This document shows, piece after piece, positions 8,898 to 22,022 of a DNA stretch of 22,022 nt. Origin of the DNA: a virus; IMG/VR virus record IMGVR_UViG_3300032287_000314, positions 1 through 22,022 of that record. The stretch is one strand, 5' to 3'. The position numbers and the translations under genes are program-made. Positions within the stretch are counted from its first letter, which is position 1, and each line of letters begins with the position of its first letter. Under the pieces are notes generated by a model, which saw only the letters and a list, made by a program, of their open reading frames with translations, was not told where the DNA came from and searched no databases.

Positions 8898-9371
8898 TTA
8901 AGCTGTACGAGTAAACACATACGCTGTGGCACTTGAAAACATTAAAGTGAAACGTGCCAAGCCTGTTACGCCTGCAGCAACGGTCAGGTCGCCAAACGAA
9001 CCCGGAGTATCCACAGCAGCACTAGAAAGAATGCCGTTTACGGCAACTACCATAGTCACCGTGCTTGCACCAGCGGTGTTGTCAATATACAAATCAAACA
9101 CAGTTCCCTTTGCGGCACCCAATGCTGCGCCCAACAAGGTTCCTGTAGGTAAAGTAATTGCGGTCGCTGCGGCAGAAGTAGAAGTGATGTAACCGGTAGC
9201 TACTTGGGTTGCAGTAGCGGTTGCTGTAGCGTTAATTGCAGCCGTTGTGGCGTGTGTAATGCGACCAGTGCCTGCAATATTGCCTGTAACGTTGCCTGTA
9301 ACGTTGCCCGTTAAGTTGCCAATAAAGCCATTGGTAGACGTAACTGGGCCGGAAAAGGTAGTAGATGCCAT
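8898..9371 (-). CDS. Repeat-containing small virion protein, possible head fibre or decoration
   Basis: A 157-residue protein with ATG start and GAGGAAA ribosome site. It is the first gene after the terminator and candidate promoter at 9436-9512, so it opens the second module. The N-terminal STTFSGPVTSTNGFIG is followed by four-residue repeats (LTGNVTGNVTGNIAG, about 19-33), then an Ala/Thr-rich region and a beta-rich C-terminal domain (GTVFDLYIDNTAG, LARFTLMFSSATAYVF). Proteins beginning FSGPVxSxxGF-G with GNVTGN repeats are common near capsid genes of aquatic phages. The repeat resembles the stalk of small fibres, so a capsid-surface fibre or decoration protein is the best guess. No direct evidence. 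Confidence 0.75.
   Translation of the reverse strand: MASTTFSGPVTSTNGFIGNLTGNVTGNVTGNIAGTGRITHATTAAINATATATATQVATGYITSTSAAATAITLPTGTLLGAALGAAKGTVFDLYIDNTAGASTVTMVVAVNGILSSAAVDTPGSFGDLTVAAGVTGLARFTLMFSSATAYVFTRTA
9270..9317 (-). repeat. Four tandem 12-bp units coding Thr-Gly-Asn-Val
   Basis: Four adjacent 12-bp units (plus strand gcctgcaatatt, gcctgtaacgtt twice, gcccgttaagtt) encode the N/G/T-rich repeat in the protein at 8898-9371. Two units are identical, so copy number could change by slippage without breaking the frame. Confidence 0.8.
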
Positions 9372-15785: not shown

Positions 15786-18700
15786 TTATTCCCCGTCTTT
15801 ATTCTTGTACTTCAGGTAATCGGCGTACTCGTCGCCCCAGTTAACCATTGTGTCTTCTTTAAGTGAAGCACCTGTTCTATCTCTACTGTATTTTGTAGGT
15901 TGCATTGAAGAAGGGTTTAACTGATCAAATAGCGTAAAAATTGCGCGTTTTTGTTCCGCAGTGGGTTCACTATTAAACTTAGCTTGAATCTGCCTTGTCA
16001 CATTAAGTTCCCCATTAGGACGTGCCTCTATTTCTACGGTGACTTGAGGAATCCCTTTGTCATCCCGCAGGGAGTATATACGAGCACGGCCAGAATTGAA
16101 GGCGTCTTTTCCACCTAAGTTGTAACTATTGCTGGTTTTGTAGCCGCCAACAGAATGACGCATCGCAGCTCCTTCTAGCTCCACTGCATTAGGGCTGGTT
16201 ACCTGAACCCACTTCAAATTTTCGCCAACACTCTTTACTGGTTCCGTTCCATCAAAGTAAAGCTTCGTAGGGAGCGGTTTTCCATTCTCCGCCTTGTTTA
16301 AGACCTCTTGCCAATCCCGAGTCAACCTCATGTTCTTCGTGCCTTTGATCACGGCCTCGGGGAAGCTCATGCGCTGCAGGTCTTTTAGCGGTATAGAAGC
16401 GATACCTTCTGCAAGGTTAGCAGGTACCATGAAATCCAGATCAGGACGAGACATGTCATAAATAGGTTCGTTATTCCTATACGCATAGAGCATGTTCTCT
16501 ACGTCCTTAGGGAATTGCGAACGAAGTTCCGTAGGTGCTCCACCCGGCATAGATTCTTCGATTATGCGACCCATGTTATTTTGCGCTTCACCCGAGTAGC
16601 TTTTTGATAGGTCTTGAATATCTGTTGGAGTGGGGTACTCAATGTTTATAAGCTCATCCGGAACACCTTCTGCACGGAGCTTTTCACGAATCTGTTCTTC
16701 CACCTTATTTGCTAGTACATAACCTTCGTTACTAGAAGACTGCATCTCTGGTGGTTTTATTACCCTTGCACGAAGCTTAGTGGCTTTATCATAGGCTTTC
16801 TCTAAGTCAGCAATCGCCTCTGGGTCACCCATCAAACGTGCCAATGCTTCAGCCGCGTCGCCACCTTCTTCCGCCGCTTCTCCTGCTCCACGGCCCTCGC
16901 CTCTTGCGGCTTTTAATGCGTAACTACGGAAAGTCTCTTTGTCAGTTCCGTAACGAGGTAAGCGTCCTTCTACGAGTGCCTTGCGCAACGGATCATCTGC
17001 TGTCCCGTACTCAGTCGTCAAGTATTTGCGTCCCTTGTCGCGAATGAACTCAGCTACGCCCCCCGCATCTGATCCTGCCAATATGTCGGAACGTGATAGG
17101 TTGTTAACTACACTGTCCAAATAGTCATCCATACGCGAACCAAAGCTAGATGGATAGAACGTGCCGCCTTTTGGTTTTACCGCATACATAGGTTGTGCAG
17201 CTGGGGCGTACTTCATCGCTTTTTCAGCAACAGCAGGTCCCAACTCTTCCAATGCTTTTTTTGCTCCTGTCTTGGCTACCTTAGCTGTTTTACTGACAGC
17301 GCTTGAAGGAATGGGAAGAGGCATATAGGTGCCCACATTTTCAAACCCTCCCGCCTCTTTAGTTGGGCTGGTCAAACGTTTAGGCATATAGTCGCGCAAT
17401 ACTTCTTCTGTTGTTGCCAACTTGCGCGTCTTGTCACTGTCACGGAATAAGGATTCAATATCACCAAATGATCCGGGGACAGCGGCCACTGAGCCACGAA
17501 CTAGTGACTCAAGATTACTAACTCCTTCACCTGCAATGCGACTAAGCGCAGTTAATGCCTCACGTGCGAAGGACTGTCCCGTCTCTGGATTAATTGCGGT
17601 GGTCCGATCTCGAGACGTGGGGGACGACGAAGCAACCGCTTCACCGCCCCCCGCGAACTTTTTTAGCATGGCCTTGGACTTAGAATCCATGCCTTGATTC
17701 TTGGACCGCGATTGCTGGGCCACCATCCTTGCCACGGGGTTACTGATCTCCCCCTCTGGCGGTGACCCCTTCGCTCGACCCGGAATCTTATTGATGAACA
17801 TGTCAATGTCCGAATTGATTCGGTTCCGCTTGTCATTCTCTTTGTTAATCTTTTCACGTAACGCATCAGAGTAATAACCTACGCCGGTCTGGTCGCCGTA
17901 CTTAGAGATCGCTGTTTCCAACTCTCTAATGCTATTGTCGATGCCTGTAAGCGCGTTTTTAAATACACCGCGAACACCGTCTTCCGTAGTCTTTGCACTG
18001 ATGGCAATGTTTGGTGTGCTATACGCGCCGTAGTTCTTGTTGATAAACGCCAACGATGTATTAGCGTTGCTTTTCATCAAGTTTGCCTGATCCAGCTCTT
18101 GCTTCTGCGGATTTACCACGTCATTAAAGAAGTTCTTAGTAACGTCCGCTTTGTCGCCATACAAACCTTTAAGCTGGTTGTACGTTCCTAACGCCGCTTG
18201 GTAGTCGGCGTTCTGTCGCTGAATAAGCGGATCAAACGCCTGTGCTGCATTTAACTTAGAGTAATCCTGATCCGGCAAATCCAAGCCCGTAAAGCCTGTG
18301 ATCTTCTGAGCCGCCATCTGCTTGCCCAAGATCAAATCACGCATCGGATCAGGTTGCGCCTGATCAATAGCCGATTGTCGCGCACCACGGGCTTGATCTA
18401 ATCGAGAATTCTCTTTGTCCAACAACTGATTTAACTGCGACGCATAGCCGCCTAGACCTAACCTATCGGCTTGATCTCTTGCCGCCTGTAGTTTAGCTAC
18501 GTTGTCCTCATACGTTTTAATGGGTTGCGCGAACGCCGCAGTTGTCTGCGCCTCGTTACGTATCTCAGCTAATTTCAGCGGGCTGAAGTCTTTGTACGCT
18601 GCAGCACCTGAAATGGTTCCGTACAGATTTGCTTTGTTTACTCCACCGACTAGGTTATTCAAACGGTCGTACTGTTCTTTCTGTGGAGTTACGACGTCCT

Positions 18701-19949
18701 TTAAGTAATTCTTTGCGATGTCCGATGTCGCGCCAAATCGTGTTGACAGTTCGTTGTACAACGAGTTAGCTGCCGTGTATTCCTTTTGCTGCGTAATCAA
18801 GGCACTTGAAAAAGGATCAGCCTTGGTCTCAGGAGTAAAGCCAATGTCGCCAAGATTAATATCTGTATAGCCAGTGACGCCCTGCTGCTTTAACCAATCC
18901 GCCTCACGACGCGTTTGATATCCCGTAGGTAGTTCATACGCTCCACCCACACCTGTGAAGTACTTTGACGCGTTTGTGAAGTCAGTCTTAGACCGAAGGA
19001 CGTCCGCCTCTTGCTCTAGCAAAATACCATTCAACTGCCCAGCTAATCCCCAGTTACCTGTGGCTACCGCTTTGTTATATTCCAAACGAATTGCGTCCGC
19101 TTCAGATTGCTGTTGCTTGGTTGCGCCAGCAAACAACTCTGTCACTTGGGCCTTGGTCCCCGATATGTTTTCCGGATTAAAGGTCGCGTAGTTCGTGTAC
19201 TCGTAACCACCGGGAGTCTTTAGCACCGCTGGAGGTGTATACCCGCCACCACCGGTCGTGCCACCACCTCCAGTATCTTTGGTCCTCTCAATCCCATCCG
19301 GAGTCAAATAGGCGGCAAAGTCTTTTGGCCTGTCAAACGATACAACGGTAGGTTCTGACTTAGAAGTAGCATCACCCGTCGTTTTAGTACCGTAGCTTGT
19401 TAGGATGTCAGAAGGCGCTAGATTAATCTGCTGTGCTGGTAAATCCTTTAACTCTTTCAATACCGGTTTGGCTAAGGTAGGTGTATCCGTAACCTTTGAT
19501 GTTGGCATCGTCAATTTAGTCGAAGCAAACGTAGGAATGTTCGACAACATATCTGACGCTGACAGAGTAGTCGCCGCCTGAGGTTTTATTGGTGCTAAGT
19601 TCCCTGTAGTTAATGCCGCTTGTGGCTGCTGTAGCGTCGTTAACGCACTGGGCAATACAGGAGTTTTTAGCGTGTCCGTAACCGCCACACCTGTCGCTGG
19701 TACAGCCTCTGGGCCAACCGCAGGCTGAGTAATTATCGGGTTCGTGTACGCATTAGCCGCTGCTTCTCGTATCTTGAACTGATCAAACAACGGGTCGCCT
19801 ACTACCTCGCCACCCTCTGCAAACTCTTGAACTTGCTCGCCGTCATCTATCGGAGCGTATGCGCCATACTTTATAAAGTCCTGAAGCATGGTCGAAGAAG
19901 TGTCTCCGCCCGTAGACGCAAGATCGTCAACTGTCTGTTCGTTGTCCAT
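15786..19949 (-). CDS. Giant virion-cluster protein with internal duplications and PcfJ-like C-terminal motif
   Basis: A 1387-residue protein, ATG with AAGGG ribosome site, between terminase and portal. Residues 1-225 are low-complexity and include FAEGGEV (43-49). A Gly-rich linker lies near 226-236. Residues about 295-705 hold a duplicated unit of about 195 residues: DPFSSALITQQKEY...NYLKDVVTPQKEQYD from 378 matches FDPLIQRQNADY...NFFNDVVNPQKQELD from about 572. An associated helical piece occurs three times (AGQLNGILLEQE 303-314, ASQLNQLLDKEN near 503-514, SDALREKINKEN near 694-705). FAGGGEAV (765-772) and VAAVPGSFGDIESLF (821-835) follow. Near the end MRHSVGGY (1263-1270) and ARIYSLRDDKGIPQVTVEI (1289-1307) match the pattern of PcfJ-like proteins. 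No protease or lysozyme motif was seen. It may be an internal, injected virion protein; that is inference. Confidence 0.85.
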   Translation of the reverse strand: MDNEQTVDDLASTGGDTSSTMLQDFIKYGAYAPIDDGEQVQEFAEGGEVVGDPLFDQFKIREAAANAYTNPIITQPAVGPEAVPATGVAVTDTLKTPVLPSALTTLQQPQAALTTGNLAPIKPQAATTLSASDMLSNIPTFASTKLTMPTSKVTDTPTLAKPVLKELKDLPAQQINLAPSDILTSYGTKTTGDATSKSEPTVVSFDRPKDFAAYLTPDGIERTKDTGGGGTTGGGGYTPPAVLKTPGGYEYTNYATFNPENISGTKAQVTELFAGATKQQQSEADAIRLEYNKAVATGNWGLAGQLNGILLEQEADVLRSKTDFTNASKYFTGVGGAYELPTGYQTRREADWLKQQGVTGYTDINLGDIGFTPETKADPFSSALITQQKEYTAANSLYNELSTRFGATSDIAKNYLKDVVTPQKEQYDRLNNLVGGVNKANLYGTISGAAAYKDFSPLKLAEIRNEAQTTAAFAQPIKTYEDNVAKLQAARDQADRLGLGGYASQLNQLLDKENSRLDQARGARQSAIDQAQPDPMRDLILGKQMAAQKITGFTGLDLPDQDYSKLNAAQAFDPLIQRQNADYQAALGTYNQLKGLYGDKADVTKNFFNDVVNPQKQELDQANLMKSNANTSLAFINKNYGAYSTPNIAISAKTTEDGVRGVFKNALTGIDNSIRELETAISKYGDQTGVGYYSDALREKINKENDKRNRINSDIDMFINKIPGRAKGSPPEGEISNPVARMVAQQSRSKNQGMDSKSKAMLKKFAGGGEAVASSSPTSRDRTTAINPETGQSFAREALTALSRIAGEGVSNLESLVRGSVAAVPGSFGDIESLFRDSDKTRKLATTEEVLRDYMPKRLTSPTKEAGGFENVGTYMPLPIPSSAVSKTAKVAKTGAKKALEELGPAVAEKAMKYAPAAQPMYAVKPKGGTFYPSSFGSRMDDYLDSVVNNLSRSDILAGSDAGGVAEFIRDKGRKYLTTEYGTADDPLRKALVEGRLPRYGTDKETFRSYALKAARGEGRGAGEAAEEGGDAAEALARLMGDPEAIADLEKAYDKATKLRARVIKPPEMQSSSNEGYVLANKVEEQIREKLRAEGVPDELINIEYPTPTDIQDLSKSYSGEAQNNMGRIIEESMPGGAPTELRSQFPKDVENMLYAYRNNEPIYDMSRPDLDFMVPANLAEGIASIPLKDLQRMSFPEAVIKGTKNMRLTRDWQEVLNKAENGKPLPTKLYFDGTEPVKSVGENLKWVQVTSPNAVELEGAAMRHSVGGYKTSNSYNLGGKDAFNSGRARIYSLRDDKGIPQVTVEIEARPNGELNVTRQIQAKFNSEPTAEQKRAIFTLFDQLNPSSMQPTKYSRDRTGASLKEDTMVNWGDEYADYLKYKNKDGE

Positions 19950-19985: not shown

Positions 19986-21446
19986 CTAATAGTACTCATG
20001 CACAAGCGCATCACTGGGCGTATCCTCGTCATCATCATCTGCCAAACTGATGAAGTTACCCGACCTAAATCGCATCATCGCTTGTGTTGTTGAATCGACC
20101 ATGTCGTCGTTGTCCCCATTGGGAAAGGCCGCGCATTCCTCTACAAGCTCCTCGGCCCAATCTGTCTCTGGCACCCAAACCATACCACTTTCAAATAACG
20201 GCGCAACGGAGTGCGCACGACTTACTTTATCCTGTCCCGCCCGCCTGCCGCCGGGGTTGTACATCGTCACAGGAATTCCCATTCTACGTAACTCCTGCTG
20301 CAGAGTCACGCCCGTCGCCTTCGCCTCAATCAATATGTTGTCCGGCTTCCAATAATCATGCTGTGCCTTGGCAATACGCTTTAGCTCAGGGAAGTCCCAA
20401 CGACCACGCTTTACATCCAACAAGACAATATTAGGGCCAGAATCCTGATCCGGCACAAACACTCCCCACGTCGTGATCACAGAATAGTCAGCCGTCTCTT
20501 TCTTGGAATACGCCGTATCGTAACTCTGGATCAAGTAGTCACACTGTGGTGGATCGTCATGCGGCCATATCTTCCACCACTCCCGCTTTAATATTGCACC
20601 CTCTTCCGATGTCGGCTGCTGCTGCCACTGTGCTTGCCACTTACGCAAGCCAATAGACATTTTGACCTTCTCTAACTCCTCAAGCTTCCAATACTCCGGC
20701 CACAAAGGTTTATTGTTAGGCAAAATGGCAGGGAACTCCAACACCTCCCACTGGTCCGTTTTCAACTGACCTTGCTGCTTGAGTAAGCGCCCACTCAAGT
20801 CATCCGTGCGCCAACGCGTGTTAATCAAGATGATCGAGCCGTTCGGCTGCAAACGCTGACGAGGACCTGACGTGTACCAATCCCACGTGTTCTCCATCGC
20901 GGTGTCCGACATGGCGTCTTGCTCGTCCAAAATATCATCAAGGATCACGACGTTACCACCACGGCCCGTCATTGCACCGCCCTTGCCGATGAAGAAGGCT
21001 TCCCCACCTTGGCTCGTGTCCCACCTGCCCGCAGCCTTGCTGTCTGCCGACAACGCCATCTCAGGGAACAGCTCCTTGTACCGCTCTTCCGATACAAGAT
21101 TTCTAATCATCCTGCCGAAACGCTGGGCTAATTCCGCTGTGTGGGAGCCAACAATAAGCTTAGATTGAGGCATCTTGCCCATTAGATAAGCGGGGAACAA
21201 GTAGCTACCCATCTGGCTCTTGCCGTGACGAGGAGGCATCGCGATCATCAGACGTTTGCACTCGCCAGACACAACGCGGTCTAGCGCCTTAGCGATCCTA
21301 CGGTGGTGCTCCCCGACAATCATTTCGGGCCACACGTACCTACAAAAGTCTAGGAAGGTGCTTGTTGCGCGCTCCTGTGCTTGAAGCTGCGCGAGCCGAT
21401 ACTCAAGCTTTAAGCGCTCTGATTCTACGTCGCTTGTAGGAGTCAT
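19986..21446 (-). CDS. terL: Terminase large subunit (packaging ATPase and nuclease)
   Basis: I prefer the ATG at 21446 (486 residues, MTPTSDVESERLKLEYR). The frame also runs up to an ATG at 21533 (515 residues), but those extra 29 codons consist of a parS site and AT-rich palindromes and look like a leader. Neither start has a good ribosome site. Numbered from 21446: Walker A MPPRHGKS (70-77), Walker B NVVILDD with D170/D171, coupling motif LINTRW (207-212). The RNase H-like nuclease has D310 (QSYDTAYS), E374 (LIEAKATG) and an acidic cluster D447/D448/D451 (NDDMVDS). All expected catalytic residues are present. It pumps DNA through the portal and cuts the genome to length. No small terminase subunit is recognisable in this window. 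Confidence 0.93.
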   Translation of the reverse strand: MTPTSDVESERLKLEYRLAQLQAQERATSTFLDFCRYVWPEMIVGEHHRRIAKALDRVVSGECKRLMIAMPPRHGKSQMGSYLFPAYLMGKMPQSKLIVGSHTAELAQRFGRMIRNLVSEERYKELFPEMALSADSKAAGRWDTSQGGEAFFIGKGGAMTGRGGNVVILDDILDEQDAMSDTAMENTWDWYTSGPRQRLQPNGSIILINTRWRTDDLSGRLLKQQGQLKTDQWEVLEFPAILPNNKPLWPEYWKLEELEKVKMSIGLRKWQAQWQQQPTSEEGAILKREWWKIWPHDDPPQCDYLIQSYDTAYSKKETADYSVITTWGVFVPDQDSGPNIVLLDVKRGRWDFPELKRIAKAQHDYWKPDNILIEAKATGVTLQQELRRMGIPVTMYNPGGRRAGQDKVSRAHSVAPLFESGMVWVPETDWAEELVEECAAFPNGDNDDMVDSTTQAMMRFRSGNFISLADDDDEDTPSDALVHEYY

Positions 21447-21485
21447 AGGTTTCAGATTTTTATAAAAATTTTTATCAAATTGCGT

Positions 21486-21512
21486 TTTATACGAAAGGGG
21501 GCCTATTTGCAA
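21486..21512 (-). promoter_or_regulatory. Candidate promoter for the terminase gene, next to parS
   Basis: Minus-strand TTGCAA (21507-21512) and TATAAA (21486-21491) match sigma70 -35 and -10 boxes at 4/6 and 5/6, with a short 15-bp spacer. It is followed by an AT-rich stretch containing two perfect palindromes (TTTTTATAAAAA 21457-21468, ATAAAAATTTTTAT 21462-21475) and then the preferred terminase ATG at 21446. The parS-like site starts 4 bp upstream of the -35 box, so ParB spreading from it could affect this promoter. Spacer length makes the call tentative. Confidence 0.35.
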
Positions 21513-21516
21513 GAAG

Positions 21517-21532
21517 TGTTTCACGTGGAACA
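21517..21532 (-). promoter_or_regulatory. parS-like ParB-binding centromere site
   Basis: The minus-strand sequence TGTTCCACGTGAAACA matches the bacterial chromosomal parS consensus TGTTNCACGTGAAACA at every fixed position. In the long terminase frame it encodes the characteristic MFHVKH. ParB of most bacteria loads on this site, clamps the DNA and spreads, which drives chromosome segregation. About 4e-5 matches to the 15 fixed bases are expected by chance in both strands of a window this size. The site lies at the edge of the GC-rich repeat island and just upstream of the terminase promoter. No parA or parB gene is in the window, so any partner would be encoded elsewhere in the phage or by the host. 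Confidence 0.82.
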
Positions 21533-21645
21533 TGCCAAACTAGAAACTAGGGGCTAAACACTTTTATCTACATATCGTATGGCAAAAATCGGGCTATGGC
21601 ATGCGCAGCTTGAGCTGGGGGCCGAAAAACCTGCCCCGCCTCGGA

Positions 21646-21704
21646 GTAAGTGCTCACTATCGCCAAATCACGCACAGGTACCCTTTAGGTGTAAGCGCTC
21701 ACTA
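21646..21704. repeat. Pair of operator-like direct repeats
   Basis: GTAAGTGCTCACTA (21646-21659) and GTAAGCGCTCACTA (21691-21704) differ at one base and start exactly 45 bp apart; both are followed by (T)CGCC. The core GTAAGCGCTCAC is a near-palindrome around AGCGCT, as expected for a dimeric regulator's binding site. The intervening sequence is not repeated, so this is not part of the tandem array. Confidence 0.6.
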
Positions 21705-21842
21705 CGCCCACGGCCCGCGAACCATGGCCCACGGCCTGCAGTGTATGCAATGCGCGCCACATACCACGGCCAGCGGATCACATACACCGATTAACGGCCC
21801 ACGGCCCGCCCGCTGGGCGCTGGTAACGTCCGCCAGCTGGGC

Positions 21843-22022
21843 ACGGCCAGCGGCCCAGCCGGTAGCGGATCGCGGCCAGCGGCCCAGCCGGTAGCGGATC
21901 ACGGCCAGCGGCCCAGCCGGTAGCGGATCACGGCCAGCGGTCCAGCCGGTAGCGGATCGCGGCCAGCGGCCCAGCCGGTAGCGGATCACGGCCAGCGGCC
22001 CAGCCGGTAGCGGATCACGGCC
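21843..22022. repeat. Tandem 29-bp repeat array with one GATC per unit
   Basis: Six complete 29-bp units start at 21843, 21872, 21901, 21930, 21959 and 21988, and a seventh begins at 22017 and is cut by the window end. Each unit starts (A/G)CGGCCAGCGG and ends CCGGTAGCGGATC; the central CCCAGCC is TCCAGCC in unit four only. Units differ at the first base in the order A, G, A, A, G, A, A, which hints at a three-unit (87-bp) higher-order period. About 22 of 29 bases are G or C. GATC recurs exactly every 29 bp, and GGCC occurs twice in most units. There are no unique spacers, so it is not a CRISPR array. Confidence 0.95.

Follow-up and report, generated by a model that had tools for sequence, protein, structure and literature searches.

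A 29-bp tandem array beside terL is one version of a fast-changing repeat zone in aquatic phages related to DSL-LC04

The window analyzed here, an entire virus record of 22022 bases, ends in a tandem array of 29-bp units with a GATC in each. What is such an array for, and is it the array itself or the place where it stands that matters? A sequence-only reading had seen in the GATC phasing a possible target for Dam-type methylation or SeqA-like binding, or an iteron array, and in the order of the unit variants an expansion by blocks of three units. We examined the array in the window, its distribution among viral contigs, and the corresponding place in related phages.

Results

TRF placed the array at 21842-22022 on the plus strand (period 29, 6.2 copies, 96% matches, score 341). 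The array and its extent had been described correctly from the sequence alone, with a start at 21843 that belongs one base earlier. Six full units, each with at most one mismatch to the consensus, were present, compared with 0 matches in 100 dinucleotide shuffles, and a chance origin was rejected on the basis of these shuffles. The GATC words lie at 21868, 21897, 21926, 21955, 21984, and 22013, with a spacing of exactly 29. These results confirm an array of six full units with a GATC every 29 bp that continues past the edge; because the window is the entire virus record, the array is truncated by the contig end. A period of 29 shifts the reading frame; the array is therefore noncoding, as had been supposed, a protein-coding array was rejected, and the overlying ORFs are mechanical only. 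The units differ by a G at unit position 2 in units 2 and 5 and by a T at position 13 in unit 4. The order A-G-A-A-G-A-A had thus been read correctly, and expansion in three-unit blocks is possible but not significant: two G units among seven are three apart in 4 of the 21 arrangements, and the T variant breaks the exact identity of the blocks, so the order is weak evidence for them. The array strand folded no better than shuffles (z +1.95). Elsewhere in the window, a 12-bp tandem repeat at 9269-9320 (4.3 copies, 85% matches) has a period divisible by three and lies within an ORF.

The array stands 5' of terL, the terminase large subunit gene (19986-21446, minus strand; PHROG 38, 7.2e-118). 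The mechanical ORF extends from 19986 to 21533 on the same strand, and its start falls at a parS site; we infer that translation probably begins at 21446, and 576 bases then remain as noncoding DNA. This parS site of the chromosomal type (21517-21532, minus strand) has 0 mismatches to TGTTNCACGTGAAACA. It is followed, going away from terL, by a block conserved in alignments (approximately 21584-21662, minus strand) and by degenerate words in a 7-bp phase between the block and the array (approximately 21705-21841, minus strand), where CCG recurs at spacings of 7, 21, and 35. Outside the array, this stretch of the window gave z values of 5.9 at lag 7 and 8.2 at lag 21. An imperfect inverted repeat at 21741-21787, whose arms (21741-21755 and 21773-21787) are 80% complementary, occupies the position where relatives have GTGTTTGTG...CACAAACAC. 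On the other side of terL, a 1387-amino acid ORF without a PHROG match lies between terL and the portal gene (15786-19949), and phage DSL-LC04 has a gene annotated as PcfJ-like at its place.

The unit itself is rare. An 18-mer of it was found in one other viral contig (L002) among 2.9 million others, as a single copy without the 29-bp array. A comparison with plasmid iterons and host genomes had been proposed; the array gave no match in genomes and plasmids, and the whole region gave none in phage records. The closest comparison is L003, whose TerL is 99% identical to that of the window: its flank can be aligned, and at the corresponding place it has a 14-bp array of 3.7 copies with a GATC every 14 bp. 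The 29-mer of the window is a 14-mer of the L003 type plus 15 bp, and on the terL strand it reads CCGTGAT-CCGCTA-CCGGCTGGG-CCGCTGG. L109, which shares its metagenome number with L003, terminates in identical 14-mers approached from the far side; its far flank holds further words, a terminator-like hairpin, and a DUF932 gene and, further out, a gene for a Terminase_2 small subunit (TerS). Because L003 and L109 meet in shared 14-mers from opposite sides, the assembly broke within the array. Seven contigs (the window, L003, L031, L048, L052, L065, and L109) end inside arrays 5' of terL, which bears out the earlier remark that such arrays break assemblies. A join of unrelated contigs is not supported, since L003 shares the flank and has its own array next to it.

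The place, by contrast with the unit, is shared. The carriers form a group of aquatic phages to which DSL-LC04, a phage assembled from a metagenome, is related; the relatives compared are the best 80 of 218 TerL relatives, and counts refer to these with near-duplicates included. In loci with enough sequence, TRF found arrays 5' of terL in 60 of 77, compared with 0-3 of 77 per shuffle in five shuffles (61 of 77 when TRF was run on whole loci). The comparison with related phages that the sequence-only reading had called for thus reveals an array hotspot at the corresponding site. The units are unrelated between relatives, with lengths of 7, 12, 14, 15, 21, 28-31, and others. When the 400-bp stretches of seven long genomes or contigs were ranked by self-repetitiveness, the region 5' of terL came first in the window, G002, G003, and G011 and second in G012, G015, and DSL-LC04. 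A control region just 3' of terL had arrays in 40 of 83 loci. Within 6 kb on that side, 176 of 177 array periods are divisible by three, compared with 85 of 187 on the 5' side, indicating that the 3' arrays are coding repeats.

Away from terL, the region is hypervariable, with G+C-rich words and repeatedly growing arrays of unrelated units; close to terL, it consists of a conserved block, in many cases accompanied by parS. Conservation of the block adjoining terL was seen in an alignment for which motif filters kept 41 of 81 sequences, some misassigned. On the side away from terL, 47 of 67 loci have a terminator-like hairpin, compared with 8 of 67 for the opposite strand; estimates of the noncoding length from conserved ORFs were unreliable because spurious ORFs interfered. 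RNAalifold found no consensus structure in the conserved block, from a poor alignment of 39 sequences including misassigned ones, and an Rfam search gave no match. In L005, L010, L011, L060, and L079, the word region and terL are separated by a small ORF, judged by eye to be of the homing-endonuclease type, which stands at or close to the position that parS has in relatives.

A 7-bp phase runs through the words. A circular HMM, applied to 11 chosen of 17 regions that come mostly from one clade, gained only at period 7 (BIC +331; periods 5, 6, and 8-11 were negative) and gave the consensus NCCGYGG. Over the 76 regions with enough sequence, the median z peaked at lags 7, 14, and 21 (3.2, 3.8, and 4.6), and z values of at least 4 at these lags occurred in 34, 36, and 46 regions, respectively; the next-best lags were 15 (20/76) and then 12 and 23 (10/76 each). 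The words are also oriented relative to terL: the strand counts are 208:25 for CCGTGG, 234:19 for TGGCCG, 336:83 for CCTGGT, and 44:9 for GTGTTTGTG. Their preference for palindromes is weak (3.5% versus 2.2%). An exact 23-mer of the L003 words occurs in five viral-contig stretches (L003, L109, L107, L108, and L111), in the last three of which it adjoins a TerL only 53% identical, which argues against pure noise. L016 and L017 (TerL identity 76%) have neither the words nor the 7-bp phase, and the region of L015 (78%) is not G+C-rich and has a lag-7 z of only 4.9. The Chi recombination hotspot has the sequence GCTGGTGG. In one clade the most frequent word, CCTGGTGG, differs from this octamer by a single base and is comparably strand-biased (130:4), but the Chi octamer itself is rare here (5:0), and the other clade uses other words. 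From these comparisons, the 29-bp repeat is a transient form of a repeat zone that changes fast and is composed of 7-base words: a single lineage-specific tandem expansion in noncoding DNA between the upstream transcription unit and terL.

The proposal that GATC phasing marks a Dam or SeqA target was not supported. The phasing is not kept in relatives, of which 13 of 77 have no GATC in the region and L003 has it every 14 bp, and neither a Dam-type methylase (MethyltransfD12) nor a C5 methylase was found in 16 records. The GATC count of the window equals the Markov expectation (73 versus 71.9) and exceeds that of dinucleotide shuffles (73 versus 52). Summed over 77 regions, GATC occurs 349 times compared with 151 in shuffles, with a few lineages carrying 15-27 copies; this regional test raises the count of any repeated word, as with GGCC (2.15x), CCWGG (4.8x), and CAGCTG (9.0x). 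The GATC phasing looks incidental, and we infer that it and the unit length of 29 are by-products.

CCWGG is the Dcm/EcoRII site. It is nearly absent from the window (0 observed versus 31 expected), G002 (1 versus 118), and G003 (0 versus 99) and occurs at normal frequency in G011, G012, and DSL-LC04. The scarcity extends over the whole window, G002 and G003 (L088-L094), L003, and L109, and in this clade CCTGG is also missing from the repeat words. This pattern looks like restriction avoidance in one clade.

The parS site is not peculiar to the window. Near terL, 27 of 81 loci have it with no more than one mismatch and 36 with no more than two; 45 loci have no site within two mismatches. Twenty scrambled palindromes, allowed two mismatches, gave 0 hits in 1620 tests, and elsewhere in those loci only 2 sites were found in 753,548 bases. 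Passages of PMC5450999 give TGTTNCACGTGAAACA as the canonical chromosomal parS and also a form for Pseudomonas, of which L043 has an exact copy. When viral contigs were scanned, parS appeared in at least 120 stretches; among the matches listed, 28 contained a TerL homolog, with parS located at the start of terL in 8 of these and no more than 800 nt beyond terL in 4. Searches for a ParB_N domain in 15 and in 16 records, many of them fragments, found none. Five copies of parS stand close to a distant TerL homolog (27% identity) in both L177 and L134, and L015, L191, and L211 (77-78%) have a perfect parS 3' of terL rather than 5'. None of the papers found on parS with phages or terminases describes the region in its title or abstract opening; parS was looked up in passages of PMC10197239, PMC5450999, and PMC12207404 and, without a match, in PMC5002424.

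Discussion

We propose tentatively, with a probability of about 0.4, that the region is a pac-like packaging-initiation locus whose repeats turn over by slippage. The Terminase_2 TerS, encoded some 4-6 kb away, would bind the repeat part through numerous phased contacts, each of them weak, and the cut by TerL would fall within the conserved block or close to it. What is recognized would be the path of the DNA, phased or bent, and not its exact letters, and for this reason slippage and unequal recombination could renew the repeats. Such a locus would fit the arrays of unrelated units in 60 of 77 loci with their 7-bp phase and conserved orientation, the array swap in L003 with an alignable flank, and the 23-mer beside a TerL of 53% identity. 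Of 17 records, 13 had a Terminase_2 TerS at E <= 0.01 (7 above the cut-off); the window record, which is a fragment, gave none. Contig ends may also point this way: 17 of 80 fall no more than 500 nt 5' of the TerL match, compared with 2 of 80 in the equivalent 3' interval. G002 is a unit of 63,628 bp whose ends overlap by 4,367 bp; its start lies in the conserved block, and the four mismatches of the overlap are confined to a single 48-bp segment at the margin of the words. G010 has TerL and TerS at opposite ends of a 62,477-bp contig. These ends and layouts fit a packaging start and fit plain assembly breaks at repeats as well. Further points against a pac-like locus are L016 and L017, which lack words and phase, L015, which is not G+C-rich, and the array strand, which folds no better than shuffles.

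In SPP1, pac is located at the terS gene, and this also counts against a pac-like locus here, where the region adjoins terL. Likenesses to SPP1 and SF6 are found in passages of PMC4737164: both pac sites hold direct repeats, the SPP1 boxA repeats are absent from SF6 although other features are conserved, and the DNA-binding domain of SF6 TerS makes weak, non-specific contact with DNA. The phages here resemble this system in having direct repeats that vary between relatives beside a conserved sequence, and a Terminase_2 TerS; with contacts of the SF6 type, letters could change while phase and direction stay. They differ in the distance of the region from terS and in the 7-bp phase and oriented words, and binding and cutting by TerS and TerL are here conjectural. 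The region is not described in titles and abstract openings of the papers found on repeats at pac or terL, and the main text of the DSL-LC04 paper contains neither "repeat" nor "parS" (PMC10611076).

Neutral slippage would make the words remnants of 7-bp duplications with a spacing role only, the conserved block alone being of consequence. It would explain unrelated units, the replacement of the array between relatives as close as the window and L003, and the bare regions of L016 and L017; it seems rather unlikely to us, given that the words face one way even in divergent phages and that a 23-mer turns up unaltered at the corresponding place beside a TerL only 53% identical. A late-operon leader, that is, a promoter or RNA control region serving the block of terL and head genes, would suit a region lying between a terminator-like hairpin and terL with a conserved block adjoining the gene. 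The lack of an Rfam match and of an RNAalifold structure, on an alignment itself poor, speaks against it, and we consider it distinctly unlikely. A replication origin with iteron-like repeats is very improbable: direct repeats do adjoin an A+T-rich tract near terL, but the skew extrema lie elsewhere in both circular genomes examined, and the repeat letters are not conserved.

The parS site raises two further explanations. It differs from chromosomal parS, the ParB/Spo0J site, in that the same 16-bp palindrome stands here in phages, beside terL, and without a detected ParB, so that only a host ParB could act. The region may be a partition or localization site: the orphan parS would be bound by host ParB, and the phased words would assist in assembling or placing the complex. 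The frequency of parS near terL against its rarity elsewhere and in scrambled controls, the exact Pseudomonas form in L043, and the sites at the terL start in 8 of the 28 listed TerL-bearing stretches all speak for such a site; the 45 loci without one, the missing ParB_N, and the absence of RHH_1, a centromere-binding-type protein, from 16 records make it unlikely. Passages of PMC9499535 describe the parS of pSM19035, bound by the Omega protein, as contiguous 7-bp repeats; the likeness is in period only, because the phage word is CCGYGG-like rather than WATCACW and no RHH_1 was found in the 16 phage records. Quite improbable, in our judgment, is a packaging locus that uses host ParB via the orphan parS: host ParB would load beside the oriented, 7-bp-phased words and place or mark the phage DNA for packaging. 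In a variant, the oriented Chi-like words would shield the newly cut packaged end from host RecBCD-type nucleases.

The repeat region accounts for the frequent stops of contigs just before terL in this phage group. A parS site beside terL without a detected ParB offers a way to test whether phage packaging is connected with the segregation of the host chromosome. If the region is a packaging signal, these phages hold a large natural series of pac-like sites in which the letters change and the phase and direction are kept, and this series would directly test whether small terminases read sequence or DNA path.
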